From a virus: a DNA stretch of 64,000 bases. The notes beneath the pieces were generated by a model that saw only the letters and a list, made by a program, of their open reading frames with translations, had not been told where the DNA came from and did not search any database. Position numbers and translations under genes: made by a program. Below are positions 13 through 64,000 of the stretch, piece after piece. The stretch's first letter is position 1; every line of letters starts with the position of its first letter. Location of the stretch: positions 41,151 to 105,150 of IMG/VR virus record IMGVR_UViG_3300027917_000024, one strand, 5' to 3'.

Positions 13-399
13 ATGAGCAAACGTAAACTTGAAGATATGTTTGCAGAAATTGATGAGCAAGAAGAAATCGAAAACATAGAAGAGCTAGTAAATGAGCTGT
101 GGGATGTATACCACCGGTTCTCGGAATTATCGCACAGAGTCATGAGAGTATTCAAAAGGTATATGCCAGGGAAGAATGAGCGTATCGGTTTGAGTAACTA
201 TATCCTCACACTCTTTGACAAGCATGAAAAACTGACTCGGCAGGATATCATGGAGTATCTCATAATAGGTGATTTTGAATATACAATATCTTCAAAAAGT
301 CTTACGGATAGCCTGTACTTTCTCTTAAAAACTAATAGGCTAATTCGGTACAAAGATCCATCAACTGGAGAGCATTGTTATAAAAGGGGGAATGGATAA
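13..399 (+). CDS. Hypothetical protein, winged-helix-like C-terminus
   Basis: Protein of 128 aa with a good Shine-Dalgarno site (AGGAGG at 3-8) before the ATG. The N-terminal half is acidic and helical. The C-terminal half (about residues 58-128) has the look of a winged helix: a helix around LTRQDIMEYL, a second helix around SLTDSLYFLL, and a likely wing at RYKDPSTGEHCYKRG. I recognise no specific family. Its stop codon overlaps the start of the DNA polymerase gene (TAATG), so the two are probably translationally coupled. This suggests, but does not show, a replication-related or regulatory role. The start of the operon lies outside the window. Confidence 0.75.
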   Translation: MSKRKLEDMFAEIDEQEEIENIEELVNELWDVYHRFSELSHRVMRVFKRYMPGKNERIGLSNYILTLFDKHEKLTRQDIMEYLIIGDFEYTISSKSLTDSLYFLLKTNRLIRYKDPSTGEHCYKRGNG

Positions 400-3272
400 T
401 GTCTGGTGTTTGTACTCTGTGTGGGCTATATAAAACTACAACGAATGTGAAAATCGATAGTGTTGTAGGTGAGATCAAGGCTACTGAGTGCAAAGAACCT
501 ATTGAGATAGCATTTATTGCGGAGGCCCCTGGAAAAGTCGAGGAGGAAAAAGGTATTCCTTTAGTGGGTCCTGCTGGAATGAACTTAGATACTGCTCTTA
601 AATCGGCAGAAATTGATAGGTCTCGTGTGTTCGTTGGTAATATCTGCCGCTGCAAGCCTCCTAATAATCGAACCCCAAGCAGAACTGAGCAGCAGAAATG
701 CTATCCCTATCTGTTAAAAGAGCTCAAAAAAGTCAAACCTAAAGTAATTGTGTGTTTAGGACTTGCAGCCACGAAGACTATTCTCAAAGACAGTACAATT
801 AGGATGAAAGATGCACATGGTAGAGCATATAGTGGTAAACCTCTTTTAGGCTTTGACTGTATCATTGTCCCTACTTGGCATCCCAGTCCTACAACTTTCA
901 TAAATAACGAAGATCGGCGATTCCAGATGATGGCTGACATTCGTATAGCTAAAAGCCATTTAGAGGGTGAATCATTAAAGGATAAAAAGGACTGGCTTTC
1001 AATCACTGTTGCAAATTATGAGACTTGGCTCTTGGTTCTTCCAATACTCAAGAAGGCAACCCATTTTACCATCGACGTGGAAACAACTGGACTGAATGTT
1101 TTTGCTAAAAATGCGGAAATCACAAATTTTGGAATAACATCCCATGGTAATTATGGTATTTCTGTTATTTGTAGAGAAGGAGATTGGATTAGAACAAACA
1201 AAGATGGAACTATCCACGACTATTTCAATGATTTTCTTACTGATCTCGAAGAGTTAATGGATACAATACCTACTGTTGCTCATAATATGTGCTTTGATGC
1301 CAAATACATGAAGAAAAAGTGGAACATCTGGCCAAAAAAATGGCTCTGGGATACGATGCTGGGCCACTCAATTATTAGCCCAGGAGGTTCTGCCAAACTA
1401 AAGGACATAAGTTGGCAATATACTCCTAAGATGGGAGGGTATGAACATGAATTGTTACAGGCTGGTGGGTTGGAGAAAGCAAATGCGTATGAGAGAGTAG
1501 ATTACAATGTTGGTGATATCGTTTGTACGGATCGGATATATAATAGGCAACTTGAGATCTTAGAAAAAGAGAAGAAGTTATTTCTTATGCAGAAGATTCT
1601 TATGCCAGCCGCTGAAATCTTCGCAGAGATGGAGTATATAGGAGTTGCTATTGATGAATATGTTCTTAGAAACCTAGAGAAAGACTATGGAAAACGACTG
1701 TTAGATGAAAAAACAAAAATATATATGCACGGTACTATAATGCAATATAACAGAACACACGGTGGCTTCAATCCCAGTTCAACAGATCAAGTTGGACAAG
1801 TGTTATTTGATAAGAAGTATTGTGGATTTACAGTCATAGACGTATCTGACAAAACCGGAAAACCATCCTGCTCCAAAAAAGTTCTTGTTGAGTTACAGAG
1901 GAAATATAACAGTAAACTTGTAAGTATGATTCTAGACTACCGTGCGCTGTTAAAGCTTCATAGTACCTATCTCAAGGGAATGAAATCACAGCTAATCAAT
2001 GGTCGGATACACACAAACTATCACCTAAACGTTGCGAGGTCAGGGCGTACAAGCTCGTGTGTTGCGGAGGGAACTTTGGTAGATGTTGTACGAGATTTAT
2101 CTAGGTATCCTAATGGTATTCCAATCGAAGATATACGCCCAGGAGATTATGTATACTGTTATGATAATAAATGTAACCTAACAATCAGGAAAGTAAAATG
2201 GGCAGGAAGGACTGGAAGAGAGAAAGTATTAAAACTAAAATGGATTGGTGCTGGTAGAAAGTTTTCGGGAGAATTGAAAGTAACTCCTGAGCATAAAATC
2301 CGCCATTCTGATGGACATTATATAGAAGCAATAGATTGTAAAGGAATAAATACTCTAGCACTTAGTAGAAGTTTGCGTAAATCTGGTAAAAGTAGGCTAT
2401 TAATTTTAGATGTGTTAGATGAAGGAGAGATGGTCGATGTTTATAATCTTGAAGTAGAAGAGTTTCACAACTTTATTGCTAATGGTATCTGTATAAAAAA
2501 TAGTGGACCCAACCTTCAAAATATACCCGAAGATAGTGATATAAAATCTATGTTTATTCCAGATGTGGGATTTAGATTTATTGATTTGGATTATCGGCAG
2601 ATGGAATTGGTTGTCTCTGCCTATTATACTGGTGATGAGGTTATGAAAAAGGCCATACTTTCTGGTGATGCTCATACATATATTGCAAAATTAATTTTTG
2701 GTATGGCAGAGGTAAGTGAAGATAATAGAAGGTTTGTAAAGACACTTAATTTTGGGGTTCTCTATGGAATGGGAGCTGGGAAGTTAGCAGAATCACTTGG
2801 TATAGAGGAAGACGATGCAAGAAGGCACATAAAAGAATATTTTAATATTTTGAAGGCTACAAAAACTTGGATAGATAGAAGGCGGTGGCATGCTGAACAT
2901 AAGGGATTTGTTACATCTAAATTTGGACGTATCAGGAAGTATAAAGCAAGGGAGGAAATTCTTCCAGGCGAGAAGGTTGAATATAACTCCGCTGTCAACC
3001 ACCCTATACAATCACTAGCATCTGATCTTATGCTCTACGCTATGGTACAATGGAAAAAGTATTTAGTAAAACGTGGTTTGTATCCACATGATGCTTACAT
3101 GGCATTACAGGTACACGACTCTATTGTTAGTTGTGTCAAAGAGCAACTAGTTGAAGAACTCCTTCTGGCTAAAAAGAACGTATTTGAGTCAATCAAGTTC
3201 GAATTTATGACATTACCGTTATCAGTAGAACTAAAAACAGGCCATGATTGGGGTAACTTATCGAAAACATAG
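399..3272 (+). CDS. polA: Family-A DNA polymerase fused to N-terminal family-4 uracil-DNA glycosylase, interrupted by a mini-intein
   Basis: The 957-aa precursor copies the phage genome. Residues 1-190 are a family-4 UDG: motif EAPG at 42-45, GPAG at 57-60, HPS at 161-163, and four Cys (5, 8, 85, 101) spaced like the 4Fe-4S ligands of this family. Residues about 220-375 are a DEDD 3'-5' exonuclease (D226/E228, N296/D300, Y369/D373). The polymerase domain follows: motif A DYRQME with catalytic D731, motif B RRFVKTLNFGVLYG, and motif C VHDS with D907. Motif C has Ser where this family usually has Glu. There is no 5' nuclease domain. An intein lies at residues 554-701; its removal rejoins the SGRTSS and SGPNLQNIP segments of a typical PolA. 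The ATG overlaps the previous stop (TAATG). Confidence 0.95.
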   Translation: MSGVCTLCGLYKTTTNVKIDSVVGEIKATECKEPIEIAFIAEAPGKVEEEKGIPLVGPAGMNLDTALKSAEIDRSRVFVGNICRCKPPNNRTPSRTEQQKCYPYLLKELKKVKPKVIVCLGLAATKTILKDSTIRMKDAHGRAYSGKPLLGFDCIIVPTWHPSPTTFINNEDRRFQMMADIRIAKSHLEGESLKDKKDWLSITVANYETWLLVLPILKKATHFTIDVETTGLNVFAKNAEITNFGITSHGNYGISVICREGDWIRTNKDGTIHDYFNDFLTDLEELMDTIPTVAHNMCFDAKYMKKKWNIWPKKWLWDTMLGHSIISPGGSAKLKDISWQYTPKMGGYEHELLQAGGLEKANAYERVDYNVGDIVCTDRIYNRQLEILEKEKKLFLMQKILMPAAEIFAEMEYIGVAIDEYVLRNLEKDYGKRLLDEKTKIYMHGTIMQYNRTHGGFNPSSTDQVGQVLFDKKYCGFTVIDVSDKTGKPSCSKKVLVELQRKYNSKLVSMILDYRALLKLHSTYLKGMKSQLINGRIHTNYHLNVARSGRTSSCVAEGTLVDVVRDLSRYPNGIPIEDIRPGDYVYCYDNKCNLTIRKVKWAGRTGREKVLKLKWIGAGRKFSGELKVTPEHKIRHSDGHYIEAIDCKGINTLALSRSLRKSGKSRLLILDVLDEGEMVDVYNLEVEEFHNFIANGICIKNSGPNLQNIPEDSDIKSMFIPDVGFRFIDLDYRQMELVVSAYYTGDEVMKKAILSGDAHTYIAKLIFGMAEVSEDNRRFVKTLNFGVLYGMGAGKLAESLGIEEDDARRHIKEYFNILKATKTWIDRRRWHAEHKGFVTSKFGRIRKYKAREEILPGEKVEYNSAVNHPIQSLASDLMLYAMVQWKKYLVKRGLYPHDAYMALQVHDSIVSCVKEQLVEELLLAKKNVFESIKFEFMTLPLSVELKTGHDWGNLSKT
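2058..2501 (+). other. Mini-intein in DNA polymerase (in-frame, no homing endonuclease)
   Basis: A 148-residue in-frame insertion between SGRTSS and SGPNLQNIPE, the conserved substrate-binding stretch of PolA. It starts with Cys (CVAEGTLVDVV), has a block-B-like VTPEHKI with the TxxH pattern, and block F/G as VYNLEVEEFHNFIANG followed by ICIKN. Ser is the +1 extein residue. The length only allows the Hint splicing fold, so no endonuclease domain is present. The penultimate residue is Lys where most inteins have His, which may slow Asn cyclisation. The UDG, exonuclease and polymerase motifs lie on both sides and appear intact, so the host protein is probably functional after splicing. Confidence 0.9.
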
Positions 3273-14240: not shown

Positions 14241-15258
14241 GGGGCTGCATGGCAAAGACAAGAAGGTTATTATCCTCATGCTCGAAGGTGGTATTGGAGA
14301 TCATCTTCTAGCTACACCTCTTCTTCGTGGCCTCAGAAAAAAGTATCCCACCGATCAATGGTATCTCATAATGATTGCGATGTACCATGAAGTCTTTGGT
14401 TACGAGGATCCCAAAACTAAAGACGGCAATACTTTGATATGCATGAATCCGTATATCGATAAGCTCTATTCCATGCGACTACCCTCTCGCTTCTATATGG
14501 AATGGGCTCGAAATGCAGATGTAATATATCGGTTAAATCCATATATACTATCTCCGCAAAGACTAGGCTCTAACCACTTTGCTGAAACATGGTGTACTAT
14601 TCATGAAGTTAAAATGGACGCTCTTGTATTGGACTATTATATTACTGAGCATGAAGACTTAATGGCAAGAAGACTCTATGAAATGCTCGTAAATCCAGTT
14701 ATTGTAATCCAACCTTTCGGTGCATATGACCCTATCGACCACATCAAAGCCACCGAGAATAAAGACTGGTGCGATGACAGGTGGGAGTTTATTATTCAAC
14801 TTCTCTTGAACAGGGGCTACGATATTATTCAGGTGGGAAAGATAGGAGAGCGAGTATTTAATGGTGTTCTTTCTTTTGTAGGCCATGCAAACATAAGGGA
14901 GACGGCAGCTATTATGAAGTATGCCGAGTACTTCATCAGCATTGATTCTTTTGTAATGCATATGGCCAAAGCACTAAATAAAATTGGTATTGTATTGTGG
15001 GGAAGAACTAATCCCTTCAGAGTTGGTTATATGGAGAACTATAATATTTTCAAGCTGCATTCGTGTCCTGAGATCTTCTGTGGCCGACCAGAAGGAGCGC
15101 TCTTCGATATGGCCTTCGATCAGCCCTACTTTACCCCGTGGCAGTGTCCTCATAGAGACTGCATGAAGGCAATTACAGTAGCAGATGTAGCTAAAGGGAT
15201 AGGCTTTATGGAACAAAGACTACAGCTGGATCCTGTTACATATGAGAGGAAGATGTAA
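14224..15258 (+). CDS. Glycosyltransferase family 9 (heptosyltransferase-like)
   Basis: Protein of 344 aa with a GT-B fold. The N-terminus LEGGIGDHLLATPLLRGLR is the typical GxGDxLxxTP motif of ADP-heptose:LPS heptosyltransferases. The C-terminal half has IVIQPFGAYD, a nucleotide-binding loop, and IDSFVMHMAKALN and VLWGRTNP as in GT9. Cellular members add heptose to lipopolysaccharide core. Here it may decorate host LPS to block superinfection, or modify phage DNA or protein; the sequence does not decide. Its original start codon was probably ATG 13659, before the HNH gene inserted. The present start has only a weak ribosome site. Confidence 0.85.
   Translation: MIYEPRGLHGKDKKVIILMLEGGIGDHLLATPLLRGLRKKYPTDQWYLIMIAMYHEVFGYEDPKTKDGNTLICMNPYIDKLYSMRLPSRFYMEWARNADVIYRLNPYILSPQRLGSNHFAETWCTIHEVKMDALVLDYYITEHEDLMARRLYEMLVNPVIVIQPFGAYDPIDHIKATENKDWCDDRWEFIIQLLLNRGYDIIQVGKIGERVFNGVLSFVGHANIRETAAIMKYAEYFISIDSFVMHMAKALNKIGIVLWGRTNPFRVGYMENYNIFKLHSCPEIFCGRPEGALFDMAFDQPYFTPWQCPHRDCMKAITVADVAKGIGFMEQRLQLDPVTYERKM
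14233..14245 (+). repeat. 13-bp direct repeat, right copy
   Basis: Second copy of GAACCTAGGGGGC, at the 5' end of the glycosyltransferase gene. Joining the left copy to the bases after this one restores an uninterrupted reading frame beginning MLHEPRGLHGKDKK. Confidence 0.85.
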
Positions 15259-16499
15259 TGGCAGTTCCTAAGAAATACAAAGGGAGGGAAAAAGAATACT
15301 ATAGAAAGTATTATAAGGAGAACAGGAATAGAATATTAGAACTACAGAGAAAGAATAGAGAAAAAAATAGGGATAAGATTAGAGATAGACAAAGGAAATA
15401 CTACAAAAAAAATAAAGATAAGGTGCTCGAAACAAATAAAAGATCTAGGGAGAAAAGTATAGATAAAAGACTTGAATATGAAAAGAAGTATAGGGAGGAA
15501 AACAAAGATAGAATACAAGAATATAAAAAGGAATATGCCAAGAAAAATAAAGACAGACTGCAAGAATATAAAAAGGAATACTATAAGAAGAACAAAGATA
15601 CGATAGCAGCCAAGAAGAAAAAGCACAGAGAAAAAAATAAGGATAAGATAGCAGAAAGTAGTAAGAGATACAGGGAAGAAAATAGGGACGAGATATTAAA
15701 GAGGCAAAAACAGTGTAGAGAGAAAAATAGGGATAAAATACTAAAGAGACAAAAGGAATATACCGAGAAAAATAAGGACAAAATAAAGGAGTCTCAAAAG
15801 AAGTATAGACACCAAAATAAAGCAAAAATAGTAGCTCGACAAAAACAATATAGAGAAGAGAACCGGGAGAAAATAAAAGCCGGACGAAAGAGATACTACG
15901 AAAAAGAAGAGAACCAGGAGAAAATAAAAGCCGGACGAAAGAGATATTACGAAGAGAATAAAGAAAAAATGGCGACTCAACATAAACAGTACTATGAAGA
16001 GAACAAAGGCACAATAGCAAAAAAGGCAAAGAAATTTAGAGAAGAAAACAAGGAGAAAATATCAGAAGGGCAAAGGAAATATTATAAAAAGAATCAGAAT
16101 GACCCAATGTTTAAGTTGAATGGGGCAATGCGACAAGGAATATATCAGGCACTAAAAAGAAATGGAGGAAGTAAAAACGGACGACATTGGGAAGATCTTG
16201 TGCCTTATACTCTTGAAGAATTACAACAGCACCTAGAATCTAAATTTGATGAAAATATGACTTGGGAAAATTATGGGAGTTATTGGCATCTAGATCATAT
16301 AATTCCACTAGCCAGTTTTACTTTTCAATCTGCAGACGACCCACAATTTAAATTAGCTTGGACACTTTCTAATCTACAACCTCTAGAAAGTTCTGAAAAT
16401 ATAGGTAAGGGAAATAGATTTGATCACCCATCCAATAAAAAATTTAAACCTATTCCAAAAGCTGAAGTGAGCCCCAAAAATTTAGATTGCCTCATCTGA
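15258..16499 (+). CDS. HNH endonuclease 2 with long basic repeat array
   Basis: Protein of 413 aa. Residues about 5-290 are a long run of imperfect 13- to 15-residue basic repeats (pattern KYREENKDKI), which would form a rigid, highly charged helix and may be a DNA-binding or spacing arm. The C-terminal HNH domain (YWHLDHIIPLASF, LSNLQPLESSENIG) is highly similar to HNH gene 1. The ATG overlaps the GT9 stop (TAATG). Its last codons (NLDCLI) run into the antisense of an eroded tail-fibre 3' end, so the gene's end was shaped by recombination there. Confidence 0.82.
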   Translation: MAVPKKYKGREKEYYRKYYKENRNRILELQRKNREKNRDKIRDRQRKYYKKNKDKVLETNKRSREKSIDKRLEYEKKYREENKDRIQEYKKEYAKKNKDRLQEYKKEYYKKNKDTIAAKKKKHREKNKDKIAESSKRYREENRDEILKRQKQCREKNRDKILKRQKEYTEKNKDKIKESQKKYRHQNKAKIVARQKQYREENREKIKAGRKRYYEKEENQEKIKAGRKRYYEENKEKMATQHKQYYEENKGTIAKKAKKFREENKEKISEGQRKYYKKNQNDPMFKLNGAMRQGIYQALKRNGGSKNGRHWEDLVPYTLEELQQHLESKFDENMTWENYGSYWHLDHIIPLASFTFQSADDPQFKLAWTLSNLQPLESSENIGKGNRFDHPSNKKFKPIPKAEVSPKNLDCLI

Positions 16500-39100: not shown

Positions 39101-42100
39101 TTCTTGAATATCCCCTATGTTTTGTTTGAATATGGCTTCTAATGTTTCTGGCTGCTTTCCTATAAGTAAGGTTGAAAAGTCCTCACGCACTTCTTGCAGT
39201 ACTTCAAGCTTCCGTCCCATTTCTTCAATTACCTGATTTGCCTCATCTACTTTCTCATTGAAAAATTCTATCCGTTTTGTCAGTTTATCGAATTCCTGCT
39301 GGCTTTCTTCTTGGACGGAAAGTTCTCTTGCAGCTTTGATTTTTGTTTCGGCAGTAATTAATTGTTCGGCATATTTTAATTCAATATCCCGTTGTTTAGT
39401 AAGTAGATCTAGATTTCTTTGTATATGAATTGATCTTTCAGAGCCCATCTCAGATATAGTTTTGGACAGATATTTACGGCTCTCATCCATTAATTTCTTC
39501 TCTGTCTCATAAAAGTCTTTTGATATTAATTTTATCTTGTTGTAATACTCCTGAAATTTCTGAGCTCTAATTTGTTCTCTTACTCCAGGTGTGGCAATTA
39601 TACCTAACTCTGCTATTGCTAGATTAATCTCATTTACCGTATTTTTTGCTTCTCTAACCATTTCGAGCCGTTCTACCACTGTAGCTTGTGCCATCATTTT
39701 TCTTGCGTGGGCAGGTAAAGCGGCCATAACTTGCCGGATAACATTTTGGTTACGTTCTAGATGTTCTCTTACAACATTTGTTCCGTGCGCAGAAATCCGT
39801 GAAATTGTTCCGAACATTCGTTCATAGGCAGCTTCTAAATCATTAACATTATCTACCATATCTACTATTTGTTTTGCCATGGCTAATCCAGCATCGCCAA
39901 GAACTTTTTTCTGCTTCTCCCCAATTTTTTCGAAGTCTTTTATTAGATTTTTTGCTTCCTTACTCGATACATCCATTCCACCTCTAAGCAATTGTTCAAA
40001 TTTTTCTATGTTTATTCCTGCTCTTTTTAAATGCTCTCTCGACAAACTTCCCATTCTACCATAATAAATTCGTAGACGGGCTTCGATAGAGCGTTGTTCT
40101 TGTTCACTTGCACCTTGAAGGGATCTCATGAGCTCTATCATTCGTTGCAATGTATTGTAATAGTACGCTGCTGAAACGTCACTGAATTTTTTTTGATGCT
40201 CATCAAATGCGGCTGTATAAGATGAAAGCTCCGCTCTTAGTTTGTCTATGTCACTGGCACCTTCTGACAGTAGTTTTTTTCTAGCTACTAGATTGCGCTG
40301 TTGTATTTCACGGAGATCTGCATCCATTTCTACTAGAGTTGCTTTTAGTGTTGCTGGTGTTTCCTTTTCAAATTTATCTACAAATGTTGAAGCTTCTGCT
40401 ATAGCGTCAGTAAGAGCCTTTTTAGTAGCATCCGGCGCAAGAGCCGCAAAAGGAGAAAGCAAAGGTCGTTGGAGCCTTGTGCGAAGAGCGGCATATTCAG
40501 TTTCTATATCAGCAAATGCCGTTTCTTTCTCTATTTCTTTTTCTATATCTTTTACCATTTTCCTAACATCTTCTCGCCCTATTTCAACACCAATTTTTAT
40601 ATTATAATCTTTGAATATATCCTGAATCTCTGGAGGAAGATCACGAATAACCCTAAGTAGCTCACTGTTGGCAACTTGACCTGCGTCACCTACTCCTAAT
40701 AGTAATTCTTTCAATCTTTGTAGCGTAAATACTGGCTCTTCAAGTCTTTTGAATTGTAACCAAATAAGGTTAACATCTTTAGGGAGTTCTTTGCCCTGTA
40801 TTATCAGTTCAGTAAATCCTTTAGCAAGATCCACTACATTTTTTCGAAATTTCTCAAGCCCAGTTGTGGATTCAAGCTCCCTGCCAAGAGCATTAGCTCC
40901 ATCATATAAACCATACATTTTTCTCGTAACAGAGGAAAGTCGTATTTCCAGCTCTCTTAATTGCTTAGCTTCTTTTTCTTCTAACTTTTCCAATCGTTCT
41001 AATAGTTCTATTCTTTTCTGGGTAAGTTCTGTCCATTTTGCAATAGATTTTTCTATTTCTCCTGTTGTTGCAAGCTCTGCATCTAAATAAGCTAATATAC
41101 CAGGATACTGTAGTTTTAACCTTTCTCGTACCCTTAACCATTTTTCGGTATAAGGAATTGTAGTACGATATTCTTCTGCTAATTCACGTAACGCTTGTTG
41201 TTCTGCTTCAATAGCGTCAAGTGTTTCTAAGTATGCTTCTCTTGCCTTTTCCAGTTCTGTGTTTGCAGTTCTCAGTGCTTCCTCTTGTTTTTTATACGCC
41301 TTATATAGCAGATACCCTGCAAATACTACAGCAGCAATCGCCAATCCTATCTTATTTAGACCCATCCAGAAGCCAGTAAGGGCGGCTTTAAGTGCAGTAA
41401 GTGACGTGACAGTAGCCCATATACTTTTTGTAGTTTTGGCCATTGCTGCTGGAACGAGTATGGTAAAAGTTTGCTTAAAATCAAAAGCTACACCCTGAAC
41501 CGCCTTTTCAGTAAGATCCATTTGTCCAGTAAGAGATCTGAAATATAATATAAGAGCAGTGACAGGTTTTGACAGTGCTTCAAGAGCCTTACTACTAGTA
41601 GCAATTCTTTTCATTAAAAGTAGTTTACCCATTCCTCTTAATATTCCATACACGACTGCTATTTGTACTGCCAATCGTTTTAAAGTATCAGGAAGCCAAG
41701 ATAATGTGTCTCCTGCCGCATTCAAAACCCATACAAGACCTTTAAGCAAGCTAACTACTGGTTCGATAGCATCTTTACCTAACAATTTGAATCTAGCTAC
41801 AAGTATTTTGACTTGTTGAGCAAAAGTTTCAATCTTGAGTTTTGCCATGGATTCTGCCAGATTGTCAAATTTACCAGTTTGCAGGGCGGCAACTGTTTTA
41901 TTTAGTTCATCTAAATTTGTAATAAGTCCTACCGCAGCTCTTTTCCCAACCTGTCCGAATATATCTTGAAGTTTATCGAATTGTATGGTCGTAAGCTGTC
42001 CTTGATACATACCTCTTTCTAGTGCTGCATTTAATTTGGTAAGAACATCAACTAGATCTAAGGGTTTTGTAAAATCAATATCAATGCTGAACGCTTTTGC

Positions 42101-50576: not shown

Positions 50577-51272
<696 letters not shown>

Positions 51273-53274: not shown

Positions 53275-54645
53275 TTACTCTACAAAATATACCTTCTTGT
53301 ATAGTTCTGTCATACTGTCACTCTCAATATTATAATTTTTAAGAACGAACTTTTTTCCCTCTTCTGCATATTCTGTTACTTTATCTATATTATTTATACA
53401 GAAATCTATCGCATCCATCCAATCATCAAGTTTTCCAGCCTGTTCCGTCTGTGTAGGAACTAGCATGCACGAGTTTTCCATTTCTTTTTTGATATTTGAG
53501 TACGGGTCGATATCGGAGCAGACAGGAAAAGCTGTTGTATAAAGATATTCCAAAAGTTTGATGGGGCTTTTTGATCGATTGAAGTCACATTCCACAAGAG
53601 GAGCAAGTCCAATATGCATCTGAAAGCTACTCAAAATCTGATGGTAATAGATGGGTTCAACAAATGGAAGGGAAATGATTCTATTAAAATAAGGAGATAG
53701 GTCCTTTGGTGGAGACTCGCCCATAAAAAGCATGCCTATATTTTCATACTTATCAAACAATTTTGGAATAAGCCCTCCAAAAACCTCTGTATCCTTCTGA
53801 TGAAATGATGATCCAATCCAAGCAATAATAATATCAGAGTCGTATTGTAATTTTTTTGGAAGATCAATATATTTATGATCAAATACACAGTTAGGGACGA
53901 CCATTACATCATCATTATGCTTTCTCAACACATCAGCAAGAGGTTCGGTTGTTGTTACTGCCCTATCACATTTCTTCAATATATTTGTTGTCACTCCAGT
54001 CCTCATTGGTGTCCAAAAGGGATATGCATGGTTCCAGTCCGGTAGATTCCATATATCATCATCAAGCTCAAACACCACTTTCTTACCACTAGCTTGTGCC
54101 TCTTCTACAACACCCTCAAGACTAGGATCTGCTGGACGTTGAATGACCAGAGTATCAGCTAGATTATATAAATGGATTCGATCTGTAGTGATGAGATGTG
54201 CGGGAATTCCCTTCCTGCATAAAGCAACACTCGGTAAAAACATTCTGTAATAACCGCATCCCCATTTTCGATGGTACGTCTAACCGTTGGATTTCTCCGC
54301 TCTCTAGACTCTCATAGTTTCCTATGAGCTCGGACCATATCATCATCCTAAAACATATAATAGGATGTCTCGCTTTTCGAACTCACTTGAGTTCTACACT
54401 TTACGTTGGTCTCTGAACCTGCCCCATATATAATCTGTACATGAAGGGGATTGGCTGCTGATCGTCCAATCTTTTGGTTTTTTAGCTGTCACGTTTAACA
54501 TTTCTGTTTCCGTTGTAGCACCAAAAGCTCTATAGGAGTTTCCAGCAATTAACGAGATTTGCATCTAGGTATTACTACCTAGAGGGACAAATGGTTTATC
54601 CGCCGCCATAAACGATACGGTTTTTACTTCTGGTTCTTGCTGCAT
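53275..54645 (-). CDS. GT4-type glycosyltransferase interrupted by a group I intron (exon 1 54587-54645, exon 2 53275-54268)
   Basis: The spliced protein is about 350 aa. Exon 1 starts at ATG 54645 after AAGGAGAGG and codes MQQEPEVKTVSFMAADKPFV; exon 2 continues with KWGCGYYRM at the splice (splice bases not certain). The central part has IIAWIGSSFHQK and the C-terminal half has HIGLAPLVECDFNRSKSP and LLEY, as in GT4 donor-binding regions. Without splicing, translation of exon 1 would end at a TAG seven codons after the splice site, and an ATG at 54243 would give a truncated 322-aa protein lacking the N-terminal motif. The product would add a sugar to an unknown acceptor. Confidence 0.8.
54269..54586 (-). 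other. Group I self-splicing intron (about 318 nt)
   Basis: On the minus strand the conserved elements are in order: P (AATTGCTGGAA, 54540-54550), Q (GCAGCCAA, around 54451-54463), R with P3' (GGTTCAGAGACCAACG, 54404-54419) and S (GATATGGTCCGAGC, 54328-54341). P4 pairs GCTGG with TCAGC; P7 pairs GACC with GGTC; P3 pairs CGTT with AACG. P9 is CTCATAG/CTATGAG with a GAAA loop. P1 is exon ATTTGT with intron GCAAAT, giving the required U-G at the splice. The 5' site is after 54587. The 3' site is best placed at the G at 54269, but 54263, 54260 or 54257 also keep the frame. No intron-encoded nuclease gene is seen. Confidence 0.88.
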
Positions 54646-56244: not shown

Positions 56245-59200
56245 TTATGTCACCTTTGCTAAATTTTTGATCTTGTACTGAGCCGTCATCCGAGCTGTTC
56301 TACCACTGTAAATATAAGTCACTTGTAATACAGCAATTTCATATCTATTATTCTGATTATAAATCAAGTTTGCATCAGATGTCAACTCTAAATATACTGC
56401 CGTTTGTATAGGTGTAATATTACCTTCCTGCCTGATATTTCCAGTAAATTTATCATAAAGTATGTAACTAGCCGAATCTGGTTTTATTGTGTTTCCATCC
56501 ATATCCTTGAATACTATCCGTACTTTAACTGTACCTCTTTCCGGTACAATTGCTCTGATGCCAGTTAGTTGTTCAGCTACTTCAAGAGAAATACTACTTG
56601 AGGAACAACTAGAACTAGAACTACAAGATTCCAACCAGTAAATTGTCAAGTCACCGATCAATACAATTCCAGCCAAACTAGCAGAAGATGAACTGGAAGA
56701 TGAACTGGATCTCGAACTGGAACTACGACTGGAACTCGAACTACTAGAACTGGAACGTGAGCTGGAACTGGAACTGGAACTAGAGAATGACGAAGAGGAA
56801 CTCGAACTCGAACTACTACTCGATCTAGAACTTGAGCTGCTACTACGACTGGAACTGGAACTACTACAGAGCCATTCCTCATCGCTTATAGATTTAATGA
56901 ATTTATCATCACCAATTACCGTATCAACTTGGTTATTATATTCAGTTTGGATCCACTCTATTGATCTGACTGTATTTGAAATCCGTACTTCATCTAGAAT
57001 TCCATTAAAATAACCAAATCCATTCCCCGATCTTCCGAAGCGCCACCTATCTGTAACTATTGATATTTCTTGTACAACTTCTATATCTTCCCTCACACCA
57101 TTTACGTGGATCGAAATTTGGCTATTATCTTCATGACACGCTGCAACATAGTACCAAGTATCTGGATCGGGACCGGTTTGGATAGTAGTTGTTCCAGTAG
57201 CTACTTCATCTGCCGGTTCTGTCGTTCTTATGTAATGTTCAAATTTACTATTTGCAGTAATTCTCAGCTGTGTTGAAAATACCGATCCTAGGTTATTTGT
57301 TCTAAGTAAGATACTAGTAGAAGTAATATCATTTGCTCTTACCCAAGCAGTAATTGTATATTCTGTTAGATCATCTGTATCTAGAACTTGGATCCAATCA
57401 TCAATACCATCGAATAGTTGCGCATAAGAGATTTTCCCATCAGTTCTAGACGGTGTTCTGCTAGCTACACCCCCACCACCAGTACCTGAAACCGCATTTC
57501 CAGACGAATCGGCATATTCCCCTGCTGTTCCGTTAGCTTGTTCATCTAAATGCCATACTCTAGTGAAATTGTTATCCCATGTGTCAGAAGTACCCGTTGG
57601 TATAGCTTGTGTTGGGTTTCCATAGAGAATCCAAATGATCGTCGCACTGTCAGCATGAACCTCCGGTACTTTCACCCATGCAACTAACTCAGCTTCTCCA
57701 GATCCTCCGTCCTTCTCAAATTTTTGTATCTCGTGATCAAGCTGTACACCTGTTCTGCTTGCAAATATGATATCATAACCATCATCTCTAGCATGATCAT
57801 ACAGGTTCGTATCGTTTTGTAGATGAATCAATACTGGGAAGTTAGTCAGATCCGCTTCAACGAGATCTTGATTGATATCGATTCGGCGGCGATAACACCA
57901 ACCTTCAAATTCCCAGCCTCCAGTTGAGTAGGAGCTCGAACTAGATGAACAAGAACTTGACTTGGAACTAGAACTGGAACTGGAACTTGATCGAGAGCTG
58001 GAACTGGAGCTGGAACTAGAACTAGAGCGTGAACTGGAACTAGAACTGGAACTCGAACTTGATTGAGAGCTAGAACTTGAACTTGATGATGACGAGCTCC
58101 TACTCGAACTGGAACGGGAAGAACTGGAACTTGACCGAGAAGAACTAGAACTGGATCGTGAAGAACTTGAAGAACTAGAACTACTACTTGATCGTGAACT
58201 AGAACTGGAACTTGATGATGACGAACTTCTACTTGAACTCGAACTCGAAGATGACGAGCTAGACCAAGAACTAGAACTAGAACTGGAAGAGGAACTTGAA
58301 CTTGATGATGAAGAACTAGATCGAGAACTGGAACTAGAACTGGAAGACGAACTTGAACTTGATGATGAAGAACTAGATCGAGAACTGGAACTGGAACTGG
58401 AAGACGAACTTGAACTTGATGATGAAGAACTAGATCGAGAACTGGAACTAGAACTAGAAGAGGAACTTGACCTCGAACTAGAGCTGGAACAGGAACTGCG
58501 TGAACTCCTACTCGAACTGGAACTGGATCGAGAAGAACTTGAACTTGAAGAAGATGAGCTAGATCGAGAACTACTGGAACTGGAAGTAGAGCTAGAACTA
58601 GAGCTAGAAGAAGATGAGCATGAACTAGAACTAAGACTGCTGCTCGATCTGGAACTGGAACTTGAAGATAATGATGAGGAACTAAAACTGCTACTTGATT
58701 CAGAACTAAAACTGGAACTAGAACTGCTACTCCATTGTATGTTTTCACAACCCTCATTCACTATAAAATTGTCAGCTCGCCATGTAAGAGCTGGATATGA
58801 AGCTCCAGCATTAGAGGCATCTAGCTGAATTTGCATCCTATTACTAGTTACAGTCCTTGTACTAATCGAATTCCATTGACTATTTCTCCAGTAGTAGGCA
58901 GTTACCGAACTTCCAGACCTTACGAAACGTAGCTTACCTGGATCGTCTATAGAACTATAACTGTCATTTAAACTACTCCACCCTGCTCCGCAACTCGTTT
59001 TATACCAAAAGAAATATCTCCAAAAACTGTTCAAGCGCCCATAATTTATATAGGCTATATTACAACCTAGATCAGTATCATATAAACCGAAACGGACATA
59101 GGACTGGTTGGCAGTAGACCAAGAAATCATGTCGAAATCGAGTTGTATATCAAAATTACCAACAAACATAAATTTCGATAGTACTCGATCTGTGCCAGTA

Positions 59201-62200
59201 CCTTCTCCTGATAGTTTAGTAAATTCAAGAGCATTACTTTGGATCTCAGGAGTACCCGCTGTTATCCACCACTTCGTAGAATCTGGAGGATCGCCATCAT
59301 CTCCTGTGAAATAATCATTAACAGGTGTACAGAAAGATCGAGAAGATGAACTTGAGCTAGAACTACTACGACTCGAACTGGAACTAGAACTACTACTCGA
59401 TCTCGAACTGGAACTGGAACTAAATGATGATGAGCTTCTACTTGAACTCGATCTGGAGCTCGAAGAAGAAGATCTAGAAGATGAGCTCGAACTGGAATAG
59501 GAGCTCGAACTCGAACTTGAGGAAGAAGATCTAGAAGATGAACTAGAGCTCGAACTAGAGCTGGATCGAGAACTGGAACTGGAGCTGGAACTGGAACTAG
59601 ATCGTGAACTGGAACTACTACTTGAACTGGAGCTGGATCGAGAACTGGAACTACTACTTGAACTTGAACTGGAACTCGATATGGAACTAGAAGAACTTGA
59701 ACTCCATTCTAGATTGTCGCAACCCTCATTAACCGTAAAATTATCTGCTCGCCATGTAGCACCAGGATAATTGGTTTCTCCATTTACTGTAGTGAGCTCA
59801 ATCTGGAAATCGCTATCTGTTGTATGTCCGTAAGTATCTACAAGTTCATTCCATTGACTATTTCTCCAGTAGTAGGCTTTTATGTAATTACCTGTTCTGG
59901 TAAGTCTTAATTTGCCTGTAGTGTCGCTACTAGGATAAATAGCATATGGTTTAGTTGTAAAACCAGACCCACAATTACTTCTTGAATGTGCTTGGTATCG
60001 GTAACCAGCACTATAATACCCATATTCCAATAGTTTGACGTTACAGCCCAGATCAGTCGCATAGGCTGATATTCGTAAGAACCATTGATGAGATGCGGGG
60101 CCGCTTGTAACTTCAAAATCAACCTGAATATCAAAATCACTTGTAAACACGAATTTTGAACGGACAGCATCAGTGGTTCCCAATGCCCCTGATGCTTGAG
60201 TCAATTCTAGAGCGTTGCTTTGTATGTCAGGACTGCCGGAAGTTATAAACCACTTACTAGAATCTGGGGGATCTCCGTTAGATCCTGTGAAGTCATCATC
60301 CACATCAGTACAAGCAGATTTGGATGAAGAACTAGAAGAGGAAGTTGATGAGTAACTTGAACTAGAAGAACTAGAAGTGAACACAGAAGCTGAACTGGAA
60401 CTAGAACTACTACTCGATCTTGAACTCGAACTTGATGATGACAATGATGAACTAGAACTTGATGACGATATTGATAAACTAGAACTAGAACTACTACTTA
60501 AACTTGAACTGCAGCTGGAACTAGAACTACTACTCGATCTGGAACTGGAACTTGAACTTGATGAAGAAGAACTACTACTTGATCTTGAACTGGAACTGGA
60601 ACTTGACGAAGAAGAACTGCTACTTGATCTGGAACTACTTGAAGAACTAGAACTGGATGAACTACTACTCGATCTTGAACTCGAACTAGAACTTATGCTA
60701 GAGCTTGATGAACTAGATGTAAATGCTGAACTGGAACTTAAACTGGAACTAGAACTTGATTGCGAACTAGAGCTAGAACTGGAACTAGATGAAGAGAAAC
60801 TACTACTTGATCTTGAGCTGGAACTGGAGCTAGATGAAGAAGAACTACTACTCGACCTAGAGCTGGAACTGGAACTAGATGATGAGGAACTACTACTCGA
60901 TCTTGAACTCGAACTAGAACTAGACGAGCTAGAACTACTACTCGATTTAGAACTTGAACTGGAACTAGAACTGGAAGAACTACTACTCGATTTAGAACTT
61001 GAACTGGAACTAGAACTGGAAGAACTACTACTCGATCTGGAGCTGGAACTGGAACTAGATGATGAAGAACTGCTACTTGATCTAGAACTGGAACTGGAAC
61101 TTGATGAGGAGGAACTACTGCTTGATCTAGAGGATGAAGAGCTAGAACTAGATTTGGAGCTAGAACTTGAGCTAGAGCTTGAGCTTGAACTAGACCGTGA
61201 ACTCGAACTCGAAGTGAGTGCAGAACTGGAACTGGAACTAGAACTGGAACTAGATCTTGAGCTAGAACTGGAACTGGAACTAGATGAAGAAGAACTACTA
61301 CTTGATCTCGAACTGGAACTAGAACTTGATGAACTAGAACTACTACTTGATGAACTAGAACTAGAACTAGATCTCGAACTGGAACTACTACTTGATCTGG
61401 AACTACTTGAAGAACTAGAACTGGATGAACTACTACTCGATCTGGAACTGGAACTGGAACTTGACGAAGAAGAACTACTACTTGATCTGGAACTACTTGA
61501 AGAACTAGAACTGGATGAACTACTACTTGACCTAAAGCTGGAACTGGAACTGCTACTTGAACACGAAGAGCTAGTAGCAACACTTGAACTGGAACTTGAT
61601 GAACTTGAACTAGAACTAGACTTTGAACTGGAACTGGAACTAGATGAAGAAGAACTACTACTTGATCTCGAACTGGAACTCGAACTTGATTGAGAGCTAG
61701 AACTTGAACTTGATGACGATGAACTATAAGAAGGACAACCAGCATAGAATCTAAAATTATCAAAATCAACAGTTACGGCTGGATCCGCATTCCAACCATC
61801 TACATAAAGACGTACTGTTCCATCTCCACTACCAATAGAGGCCCCACCTACCTCAAGCTCTACCCAATCACCTGTTCTATCTTCATCATAATAACCCCTA
61901 ACAGTACTTGAAGAACGTGTTAATCTAAGGGCACCAACTGTACCTGACCTAGAATCATTATCCTCTATCTCAGAACCACCATTAACATACCCACTTCGCC
62001 AATCAGGATTAGCGAGACTTTGCCACATACGCATCCGAAACAAATGCGTATCGTCTATAGTAAATTGAATTCCAGCCTGCCATCCAGAATTATCTGGTGT
62101 AACTACACCATCTATATCTACCCTTACATCAAAATCACCTGAAACTATTGCCAATAAATCGGCTCTTGGATTATTTTCTCCGCTTGGTTTTACAAATCTA

Positions 62201-64000
62201 GCTTTATTATTTTGTATCTCAATATAACCACTACCAAGACTTTCATCACTCCACTTAGTTTCATCTAAAGGATCTCCATTATCTCCTGTAAAATCATCAT
62301 CACACCAACAAGTACTAAATGAACTAGAAGAACGTGAACTGGAACTTGAGCTTCTGGAACTCGAACTACTTGAGGATCTAGAACTAGAACTTGTACTACT
62401 AGAAGAACTTGAAATAGATAACCCTTCACATCCCTCATTGAATGTAAAGTTATCAAAATCAACGGTTGGCTCTGGGTAATTACTCCAGGCATTGACAGAT
62501 AAAGCTATTCTACCATCACCATCGCCTATATCCCGCCCATTAGGTCCATCTAACTGTGTCCAACCACTTTTTGCACCTTCATCATAAAATACCTTTACCG
62601 TACTTCCACTACGAGTAATCCGCAACCAACCATTATCTAGAGTACGGCTGTCATTATCAGGATATTGAACACCGTCACCATTTCTATATCCAGCTTGCCA
62701 TTTTTTATTATTGAATTCCGCCCACAAAGAAATCCAGTACCAATGATTGCTATCAATATCAAAGCGTAGATATGCTTGCCAACCACTTGCATTAGGAGCA
62801 ACTTGAGCATCTACCTGAATCTCTACATCAAAATCACCTGTAATCCACGGTAGTAGTATAGCTCCTGCTGAATTTCCTGCTCCTCCACTTCCATAAATAC
62901 CACGTAACTTATTCGATTGAATTTCAGCACTACCATTACCCGCACTAATATTTATCCATTTAGTTGGGTCTGGAGGATCTCCATTATCTCCTGTAAAATC
63001 GTCATTGTAACCGCAAGAAAAACTTGAAGATGAGGAACTACTACTCGATCTTGAACTGGAACTTGAACTTAAACTGGAACTTGAACTGGAACTTGAATTT
63101 GAAGAAGAAGAGCTGCTACTTGACCGAGAACTACTAGAACTGGAACTTGAAGATCGAGAGCTAGAACTGGATGAGCTAGATGAAGATGGTCCCTCAGCCG
63201 TACCACCACCAGTAGCTACAGCAAACCAGTCGTAGTATGTATAACAGCTATGATCGTATGCAGAGACCCCTACCCAGCCACTTGAATGTGTTGAGTCTGT
63301 TTCCTCTATTTGCCATCCTGGTTCGTCACCTAAACTTCCTGTCCAACATTTTGCTTTAATATTATCATCAACAACTCGAAATCTTCCCCAATACCAAGTA
63401 TCCTTATCAATTGTTAGGGAATAGCTACCAACTGTAGATGCAGTACCCGAACTCCATTCGTGTACTCGTATTATGTGACTGGTACCATACAGTGTTAGCA
63501 TATAACCTGATATACTATCACCAGAACCAGAACCTCTTATAACAACTCTTGTATTATAATTTGCCTCTGTAGACTGTCGTGCTCTGAATAAAATTTCTGC
63601 GTCTGTTTGATCTCCAACATCATCCCACGACATACCTCTTCTACTGGCAATGGCATCAACATATGCCTCACCAGACATACCGCCATAATCACCATAATCA
63701 TTTGCACCTAACCAATATAGCCCCGGTGCTGTATTCCATCTCGAAGTCCAATCATTTGTTAAAAGATTTTCGTTGTTAGAATATTTACTAAAATCAGTTG
63801 AGTAGTGACCAACAGATGCTGAAGAACTGGAATGTGAGCTAGAACTACTGGAAGATCTAGAGCTGGAGCTGGAACTAGAACTGACAACTAATCCTGAACT
63901 GGAACTAGAACTGGACGAGGAAGAACTGCTACTTGATCTGGAACTGCTACTAGAACTTGAAGAAGAAGAGCTAGAACTAGATCTTGAACTCGAACTAGAA
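56245..64000 (-). CDS. Giant modular poly-serine protein with lectin-like domains (5' end outside the window)
   Basis: Open frame of over 2,580 aa that has no stop to the right edge, so its start is missing; an internal ATG at 63678 is not a real start. From N to C: poly-Ser (63800-64000), a lectin-like domain (63196-63800), then four related domains starting (D)DDFTGxxGDPPD at 62424-63016, 61732-62312, 59713-60315 and 58741-59330, a DUF2341-like plus LamG-like region (56872-57926), and a C-terminal Ig-like domain (56245-56590). Runs of Ser with spaced Arg separate them. It resembles an adhesin or capsid decoration protein; whether it is in the virion is unknown. Confidence 0.8.
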   Translation of the reverse strand, partial: SSSSSRSSSSSSSSSSSSSSRSSSSSSSSSSSSSSGLVVSSSSSSSSRSSSSSSSHSSSSASVGHYSTDFSKYSNNENLLTNDWTSRWNTAPGLYWLGANDYGDYGGMSGEAYVDAIASRRGMSWDDVGDQTDAEILFRARQSTEANYNTRVVIRGSGSGDSISGYMLTLYGTSHIIRVHEWSSGTASTVGSYSLTIDKDTWYWGRFRVVDDNIKAKCWTGSLGDEPGWQIEETDSTHSSGWVGVSAYDHSCYTYYDWFAVATGGGTAEGPSSSSSSSSSSRSSSSSSSSSRSSSSSSSSNSSSSSSSSLSSSSSSRSSSSSSSSSFSCGYNDDFTGDNGDPPDPTKWINISAGNGSAEIQSNKLRGIYGSGGAGNSAGAILLPWITGDFDVEIQVDAQVAPNASGWQAYLRFDIDSNHWYWISLWAEFNNKKWQAGYRNGDGVQYPDNDSRTLDNGWLRITRSGSTVKVFYDEGAKSGWTQLDGPNGRDIGDGDGRIALSVNAWSNYPEPTVDFDNFTFNEGCEGLSISSSSSSTSSSSRSSSSSSSRSSSSSSRSSSSFSTCWCDDDFTGDNGDPLDETKWSDESLGSGYIEIQNNKARFVKPSGENNPRADLLAIVSGDFDVRVDIDGVVTPDNSGWQAGIQFTIDDTHLFRMRMWQSLANPDWRSGYVNGGSEIEDNDSRSGTVGALRLTRSSSTVRGYYDEDRTGDWVELEVGGASIGSGDGTVRLYVDGWNADPAVTVDFDNFRFYAGCPSYSSSSSSSSSSSQSSSSSSSRSSSSSSSSSSSSSSKSSSSSSSSSSSSSVATSSSCSSSSSSSSFRSSSSSSSSSSSSSSRSSSSSSSSSSSSSSRSSSSSSSSSSSSSSRSSSSSSSRSSSSSSSSSSSSSSSSSSSSSRSSSSSSSSSSSSSSSSRSSSSSSSSSSSALTSSSSSRSSSSSSSSSSSSSKSSSSSSSSRSSSSSSSSSSSSSSRSSSSSSSSSSSSSSRSSSSSSSSSSSSSSKSSSSSSSSSSSSSSKSSSSSSSSSSSSSSRSSSSSSSSSSSSSSRSSSSSSSSSSSSSSRSSSSFSSSSSSSSSSSQSSSSSSLSSSSAFTSSSSSSSISSSSSSRSSSSSSSSSSSSSSRSSSSSSSSSSSSSSRSSSSSSSSSSSSSSRSSSSSSSSCSSSLSSSSSSSLSISSSSSSSSLSSSSSSSRSSSSSSSSSASVFTSSSSSSSYSSTSSSSSSSKSACTDVDDDFTGSNGDPPDSSKWFITSGSPDIQSNALELTQASGALGTTDAVRSKFVFTSDFDIQVDFEVTSGPASHQWFLRISAYATDLGCNVKLLEYGYYSAGYRYQAHSRSNCGSGFTTKPYAIYPSSDTTGKLRLTRTGNYIKAYYWRNSQWNELVDTYGHTTDSDFQIELTTVNGETNYPGATWRADNFTVNEGCDNLEWSSSSSSSISSSSSSSSSSSSSRSSSSSSSSSSSRSSSSSSSSSSSRSSSSSSSSSSSRSSSSSSSSSSYSSSSSSSRSSSSSSRSSSSRSSSSFSSSSSSRSSSSSSSSSSRSSSSSSSSSRSFCTPVNDYFTGDDGDPPDSTKWWITAGTPEIQSNALEFTKLSGEGTGTDRVLSKFMFVGNFDIQLDFDMISWSTANQSYVRFGLYDTDLGCNIAYINYGRLNSFWRYFFWYKTSCGAGWSSLNDSYSSIDDPGKLRFVRSGSSVTAYYWRNSQWNSISTRTVTSNRMQIQLDASNAGASYPALTWRADNFIVNEGCENIQWSSSSSSSFSSESSSSFSSSSLSSSSSSRSSSSLSSSSCSSSSSSSSSSTSSSSSSRSSSSSSSSSSSRSSSSSSRSSRSSCSSSSSRSSSSSSSSSSSRSSSSSSSSSSSSSSSSSSRSSSSSSSSSSSSSSSSSSRSSSSSSSSSSSSSSSSSSWSSSSSSSSSSSRSSSSSSSSSSSRSSSSSSSSSSSRSSSSSSRSSSSSSRSSSSRSSSSSSSSSSSQSSSSSSSSSSSRSSSSSSSSSSSRSSSSSSSSSKSSSCSSSSSSYSTGGWEFEGWCYRRRIDINQDLVEADLTNFPVLIHLQNDTNLYDHARDDGYDIIFASRTGVQLDHEIQKFEKDGGSGEAELVAWVKVPEVHADSATIIWILYGNPTQAIPTGTSDTWDNNFTRVWHLDEQANGTAGEYADSSGNAVSGTGGGGVASRTPSRTDGKISYAQLFDGIDDWIQVLDTDDLTEYTITAWVRANDITSTSILLRTNNLGSVFSTQLRITANSKFEHYIRTTEPADEVATGTTTIQTGPDPDTWYYVAACHEDNSQISIHVNGVREDIEVVQEISIVTDRWRFGRSGNGFGYFNGILDEVRISNTVRSIEWIQTEYNNQVDTVIGDDKFIKSISDEEWLCSSSSSSRSSSSSSRSSSSSSSSSSSSFSSSSSSSSSRSSSSSSSSSRSSSSRSSSSSSSSSASLAGIVLIGDLTIYWLESCSSSSSCSSSSISLEVAEQLTGIRAIVPERGTVKVRIVFKDMDGNTIKPDSASYILYDKFTGNIRQEGNITPIQTAVYLELTSDANLIYNQNNRYEIAVLQVTYIYSGRTARMTAQYKIKNLAKVT
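57932..58738 (-). repeat. Poly-serine repeat array between lectin-like modules
   Basis: About 800 bp of Ser/Arg repeats with the same alternating AGY/TCN codon habit. It joins the last lectin-like module to the DUF2341-like region. Confidence 0.8.
59333..59712 (-). repeat. Poly-serine repeat array between lectin-like modules
   Basis: About 380 bp of Ser/Arg repeats between the two most C-terminal DDFTG-type modules. Shorter arrays also occur at about 62316-62412, 63020-63190, 56592-56870 and 63810-64000. Confidence 0.8.
60320..61730 (-). repeat. Poly-serine minisatellite (45-bp period), largest array
   Basis: About 1.4 kb of near-repeats coding for Ser runs with Arg about every 15 residues. 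The DNA unit is about 45 bp (one AGA/TCG-like Arg-Ser step, then alternating AGY and TCN serine codons). It has small variant inserts (AFTSSS, SSSALTSS). Alternating codons keep the amino acid constant while the DNA varies, and such arrays are prone to slippage. Confidence 0.85.

Follow-up and report, generated by a model that had tools for sequence, protein, structure and literature searches.

In the window analysed here (a 64,000-nucleotide stretch, positions 41,151 to 105,150, of the virus record IMGVR_UViG_3300027917_000024, from an uncultured phage), a glycosyltransferase gene on the minus strand is very probably interrupted by a compact group I intron that lacks a nuclease ORF and seems to be of phage type IA, and splicing at GGAU|AAAUGG would rebuild the enzyme (Table 1). 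The kind of element is well known; its location and its odd end base are unusual.

Following transcription, guanosine would attack after GGAU (54598), and exon 1, once released, would stay bound to the guide sequence GUCC and in its turn attack the 3' site, where the 3' exon AAAUGG would be paired with the intron sequence CCAUUU (P10). Ligation of the exons would then give a 346-residue enzyme reading ...FMAADKWGCGYYRMFLP.... That splicing takes place, and that it uses the in-frame site, we infer from the sequence.

The intron and its core

The Rfam group I intron model RF00028 matches the minus strand from 54607 to 54311 at model positions 1-253 of 253, with a score of 101.6 bits (gathering score 50; E 3.5e-25), and cmscan found no other match to it in the 105,150 bases of the virus record, in which the intron sequence likewise occurs only once. 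Because this solitary match is full-length and scores twice the gathering score, and because the region folds four standard deviations more stably than dinucleotide shuffles of it, we regard as confirmed the group I intron that an earlier note, made from the letters alone, had described on this strand and proposed to check with RF00028. The P, Q, R and S core elements listed there correspond to a P3-P8 core that the covariance model (CM) matches in full, and the P9 hairpin and the P1 helix with its U-G pair are both present in the sequence and the CM alignment. The 5' splice site given there (54598|54597) also stands. Introns of subgroup IA2 have a P7.1/P7.2 extension and a P9.1/P9.2 domain; in the predicted fold here, GAACUC and GAGUUC form a single hairpin after P7, between P7 and P3, and there is one P9.2-like hairpin (54309-54278), capped by GAAA. 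By this layout (P7-P3 hairpin, P9 and P9.2-like hairpin) the intron appears to be a compact member of subgroup IA. As had been noted, it has no nuclease gene: the longest ORF lying wholly inside it is of 56 aa.

Table 1. Coordinates of the intron, its structural elements, the exons and a nearby nuclease gene (all on the minus strand)
Feature	Position (strand)	Description	Basis
Group I intron	54268..54597 (-)	330 nt, last base A54268 (frame-keeping reading)	RF00028 match; homologue alignment and P10 for 3' end
Group I intron, alternative end	54269..54597 (-)	329 nt	Canonical terminal G54269 used
P1	54585..54601 (-)	Exon GGAU (54601-54598) / intron GUCC (54588-54585), U-G at 5' splice site	CM alignment, sequence
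P10, intron side	54589..54594 (-)	CCAUUU, pairs with first six bases of exon 2, AAAUGG (54267-54262)	Six perfect pairs only with exon 2 start at 54267
P9 hairpin	54311..54328 (-)		CM alignment, fold
P9.2-like hairpin	54278..54309 (-)	GUCUAG...GGA GAAA UCC...UUAGAC	Minimum-energy fold of whole intron and of 3' domain
Exon 1	54598..54645 (-)	ATG at 54645; MQQEPEVKTVSFMAAD, preceded by AGGAGAGGAAGT	Sequence; homologous N-terminus KTIAFAAGD in intronless L001
Exon 2	53275..54267 (-)	KWGCGYYRMFLP... to stop	66% identity to L001:2956-3993; phrog_7162
Free-standing HNH-type nuclease gene	50577..51269 (-)	EP-rich repeat	phrog_826 E 5.6e-6

The interrupted gene and its intronless counterpart

The intron lies 16 codons after the start of the gene, directly before a conserved GCGYYR motif. 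The extent of exon 1 (54598-54645) and the end of the gene (53275) had been given correctly in the earlier note, and its assignment of the product to the glycosyltransferases is borne out by phrog_7162 (glycosyltransferase), which is matched both by the protein joined at that note's 3' site (E 4.7e-31) and by exon 2 from 54279 alone (E 7.6e-31, 108.5 bits); Pfam and NCBIfam gave no match. The protein joined at 54280|54279 fits phrog_7162 with 109.2 bits from profile position 10, against 97.8 bits from position 33 for the ORF starting at ATG 54243. The case for exon 1 nevertheless rests on relatives of the gene and not on the profile, because most of the gain in score comes from the GCGYYR stretch.

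A related phage, represented by an IMG/VR contig from a 91.7-kb record (L001), has the same gene in uninterrupted form (MEEKKFKTIAFAAGDKYGCGYYRMFLP), with no Rfam match at the locus at E<=0.1. The two glycosyltransferases share 228 of about 345 residues (66% amino-acid identity) and the gene order is the same, six flanking genes having identities of 64, 53, 43, 48, 39 and 28%. Exon 1 is genuine, as the earlier note held: the intact gene of the relative contains it (KTVSFMAAD here, KTIAFAAGD there), whereas its absence from such genes would, by the terms of that note, have refuted the intron. In the window its ORF is accompanied by AGGAG, which resembles a ribosome-binding site. Removal of the intron restores an uninterrupted host gene that aligns without gaps with the intronless allele, and the insertion can be taken as real because a related phage, the only close intronless relative found, carries the same gene without it. 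Identity between the two genes by codon position (71/84/43%) indicates protein-level constraint on exon 2. Another reading frame for exon 1 was considered and rejected, since, when read by hand, the last stop in it is followed by no start codon. An AlphaFold model of the L001 enzyme had a mean pLDDT of 43.8 and was unusable, and a search by sequence for relatives of solved structure returned only weak, unrelated matches.

The glycosyltransferase gene is flanked by a head-tail adaptor gene (phrog_477) and tail genes; downstream of it come a gene of unknown family and then one whose equivalent in L001 has a match to glycosyltransferase family 2. Two small ORFs absent from L001 (54863-55438 on the minus strand, one of 125 aa and lipoprotein-like, the other of 61 aa) sit between the adaptor gene and a gene for 54 aa that lies upstream of the one with the intron. 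Also near the glycosyltransferase cluster (56245-63678, minus strand) is a gene for a 2477-aa protein, in which globular segments are linked by very long poly-serine stretches, and which is not present at the corresponding place in the L001 phage. Serine-rich proteins are often glycosylated, and it is conceivable, as speculation, that this one serves as a substrate.

The 3' end of the intron

When exon 1 is joined to an exon 2 that begins at 54267, the protein reads AADKWGCGYYR and can be aligned without gaps with L001 and with six out of seven distant homologues; the remaining one, from phiWec188 (25% identity), has three extra residues at the junction. The same start completes P10, a helix frequent among group I introns though not present in all, whose intron strand directly adjoins the guide G and whose six-mer has a frequency of about 0.05% of positions. 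Other in-frame sites after a G offer 0-1 pairs, the exception being 54294, with four pairs, which is inside the P9.2-like hairpin. Pairing of the ligated exons (GGCGGAUAAAUGGGG) with the 5' end of the intron is predicted at -15.0 kcal/mol; for the junction 54280|54279 the value is -5.3. Taken together, the gapless alignment, P10 and the P9.2-like hairpin lead to an intron of 330 nt in the frame-keeping reading, not of the 318 bases in the earlier note, whose 3' site after 54280 (TTAG|ACG) they contradict. That site, or some other in-frame G, would keep both the terminal G and the frame, but with 54280 P10 shrinks to just 1 bp, the cut falls within the 3' strand of the P9.2-like hairpin, and TYHR is added in a conserved loop where L001 and six of the seven distant homologues have nothing, so that we consider it distinctly improbable. 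Very improbable indeed is the proposal that there is no active intron at all, the RNA being a degenerate remnant and the gene a shorter one from ATG 54243. An open frame from 54243 does exist, but it is without the GCGYYR-type motif and the first strand found in homologues, and a full-length core of 101.6 bits is unlike a remnant.

In the frame-keeping reading the intron ends in ...CCAUCGA, whereas the terminal G of group I introns is nearly invariant. In the second step of splicing, this G occupies the pocket in P7 (review: PMC3984707). One base upstream of A54268 there is such a G (G54269), but splicing after it leaves AAAAUGG, with the frame shifted by one, and an A bulging out of the P1-P10 helix (-11.2 vs -15.0 kcal/mol). 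We think it quite possible, without going so far as to call it probable, that the intron does end at G54269 and that the AAAA run contains one surplus A, through a mistake in sequencing or assembly or else a mutation of recent date, and that GAU|AAAUGG is the real junction or was the ancestral one: with one A fewer, the terminal G, P1, P10 and the frame would all agree, and it is only with four As that the use of G54269 brings about the bulge. A sequencing error is made less likely by the approximately 880 homopolymer runs of at least four bases that occur without frame breaks in the intact ORFs of the window, a count biased, and an argument weakened, by the choice of those ORFs for being intact. 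Rather more doubtful, but still worth entertaining, is an intron that truly ends in A54268 and keeps the frame. The frame, the gapless alignment and the perfect P10 all pick 54267 as the first base of exon 2, and a 23S rRNA intron of Coxiella burnetii reportedly has A as its last base. The title of a paper on that intron, cited in PMC11270868, describes it as self-splicing without a terminal G, which offers a precedent that is like the frame-keeping reading here but concerns an rRNA host gene in a bacterium. Against a terminal A stand the near-universality of the terminal G and the expectation that the G one base upstream would compete. If, on the other hand, all four As are genuine and the intron is cut after G54269, the mRNA would be frame-shifted and this copy of the gene silenced or expressed at a low level; the canonical terminal G is suitably placed for this, but exon 2 has an intact ORF under protein-level constraint and the mutation would need to be very recent, which makes such a history unlikely. 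The P9.0 pairing was tried as an arbiter and would favour G54269 (GA/UC), but was given no weight because other phage introns, judged by eye, do not keep to this pattern at their 3' ends.

Related introns and mobility

The element resembles the ORF-less IA mini-introns of phages in its RF00028 core, P7.1-like hairpin between P7 and P3, P9 and P9.2-like hairpins, P1 with U-G, P10, and insertion at a conserved protein motif; it differs from them in its conflict over the terminal base and in having a glycosyltransferase gene as host, rather than a gene of DNA or nucleotide metabolism or a structural gene. At the DNA level, identities of about 72-76%, spanning roughly 105-140 bases and confined to the P3-P6 core and the 5' half, were found with intron-like sequences of Manatee Spring phage ctwe8250 (MW202615), Staphylococcus phage MarsHill (RNA polymerase gene), Lactococcus phage AM1 (tape measure gene), Vibrio phage ICP1 and Bacillus phages. 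The Manatee Spring, MarsHill, AM1 and ICP1 sequences (74-76%) are in other host genes, and several contain or adjoin an ORF. Searches from which near-identical records may escape gave no closer relative. In the Manatee Spring phage (MW202615; L014, 994-1493), two adjacent RF00028 matches lie just upstream of the annotated major capsid gene, where no intron is annotated.

No second copy of the intron, with which covariation could be assessed, and no second case of the same insertion, was found in protein and DNA-pattern scans of IMG/VR, from which near-identical records may escape and which yielded just the intronless L001 and a distant record, L004; neither turned up when 84,980 prokaryote species, represented by a single genome each, were scanned. 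A related phage record (G001; L005, 1501-2540) does hold a group I-like intron (RF00028 42.6 bits, below the gathering score), which probably splits the major capsid gene, but this one carries a LAGLIDADG nuclease (PF03161, E 4.6e-20). It is a different intron, and its presence indicates that introns are in circulation among these related phages.

In phages, free-standing nucleases are known to mobilise ORF-less introns by collaborative homing (PMC3984707). The two HNH nucleases to which the earlier note drew attention elsewhere in the window are indeed represented by HNH-type genes, at 50577-51269 and 15258-16499. The former, at a distance of about 3 kb from the intron, has no match in the L001 DNA, where its two flanking genes are adjacent. 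This pattern of presence and absence fits a free-standing homing nuclease, and the gene may be considered a candidate for a link with the intron. We draw attention also to a 957-aa ORF at 399-3272 (plus strand), in which a family-4 uracil-DNA glycosylase domain (residues 5-183) is combined with a 3'-5' exonuclease and a family A DNA polymerase, and in which residues 680-702 form an intein C-terminal splicing motif.

Significance

A published case of a phage group I intron in a glycosyltransferase or glucosyltransferase gene was sought in the searchable text of the open-access literature, and none was found; nor are glycosyltransferases mentioned in the main text of a paper on the intron-rich Jug phages (PMC12363816; 2,513 introns). 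Since coverage of the literature was limited, we suggest only tentatively that there is no precedent. Most split phage genes are concerned with nucleotide and DNA metabolism, a bias for which regulation, or else competition acting through essential genes, has been offered as the explanation (2025 study, PMC11878797). If, as seems very probable, the present intron resides in a glycosyltransferase gene, itself probably non-core, then a target in nucleotide or DNA metabolism is not required. There is a consequence for annotation too: automated gene calling would begin the enzyme at ATG 54243, so that the first strand and the GCGYYR motif would be lost. Finally, the disagreement over a single base at the 3' end offers an inexpensive way to probe how strict the need for a terminal G may be when P10 and the reading frame point elsewhere, and the interest of the intron would rise if the terminal A were real.
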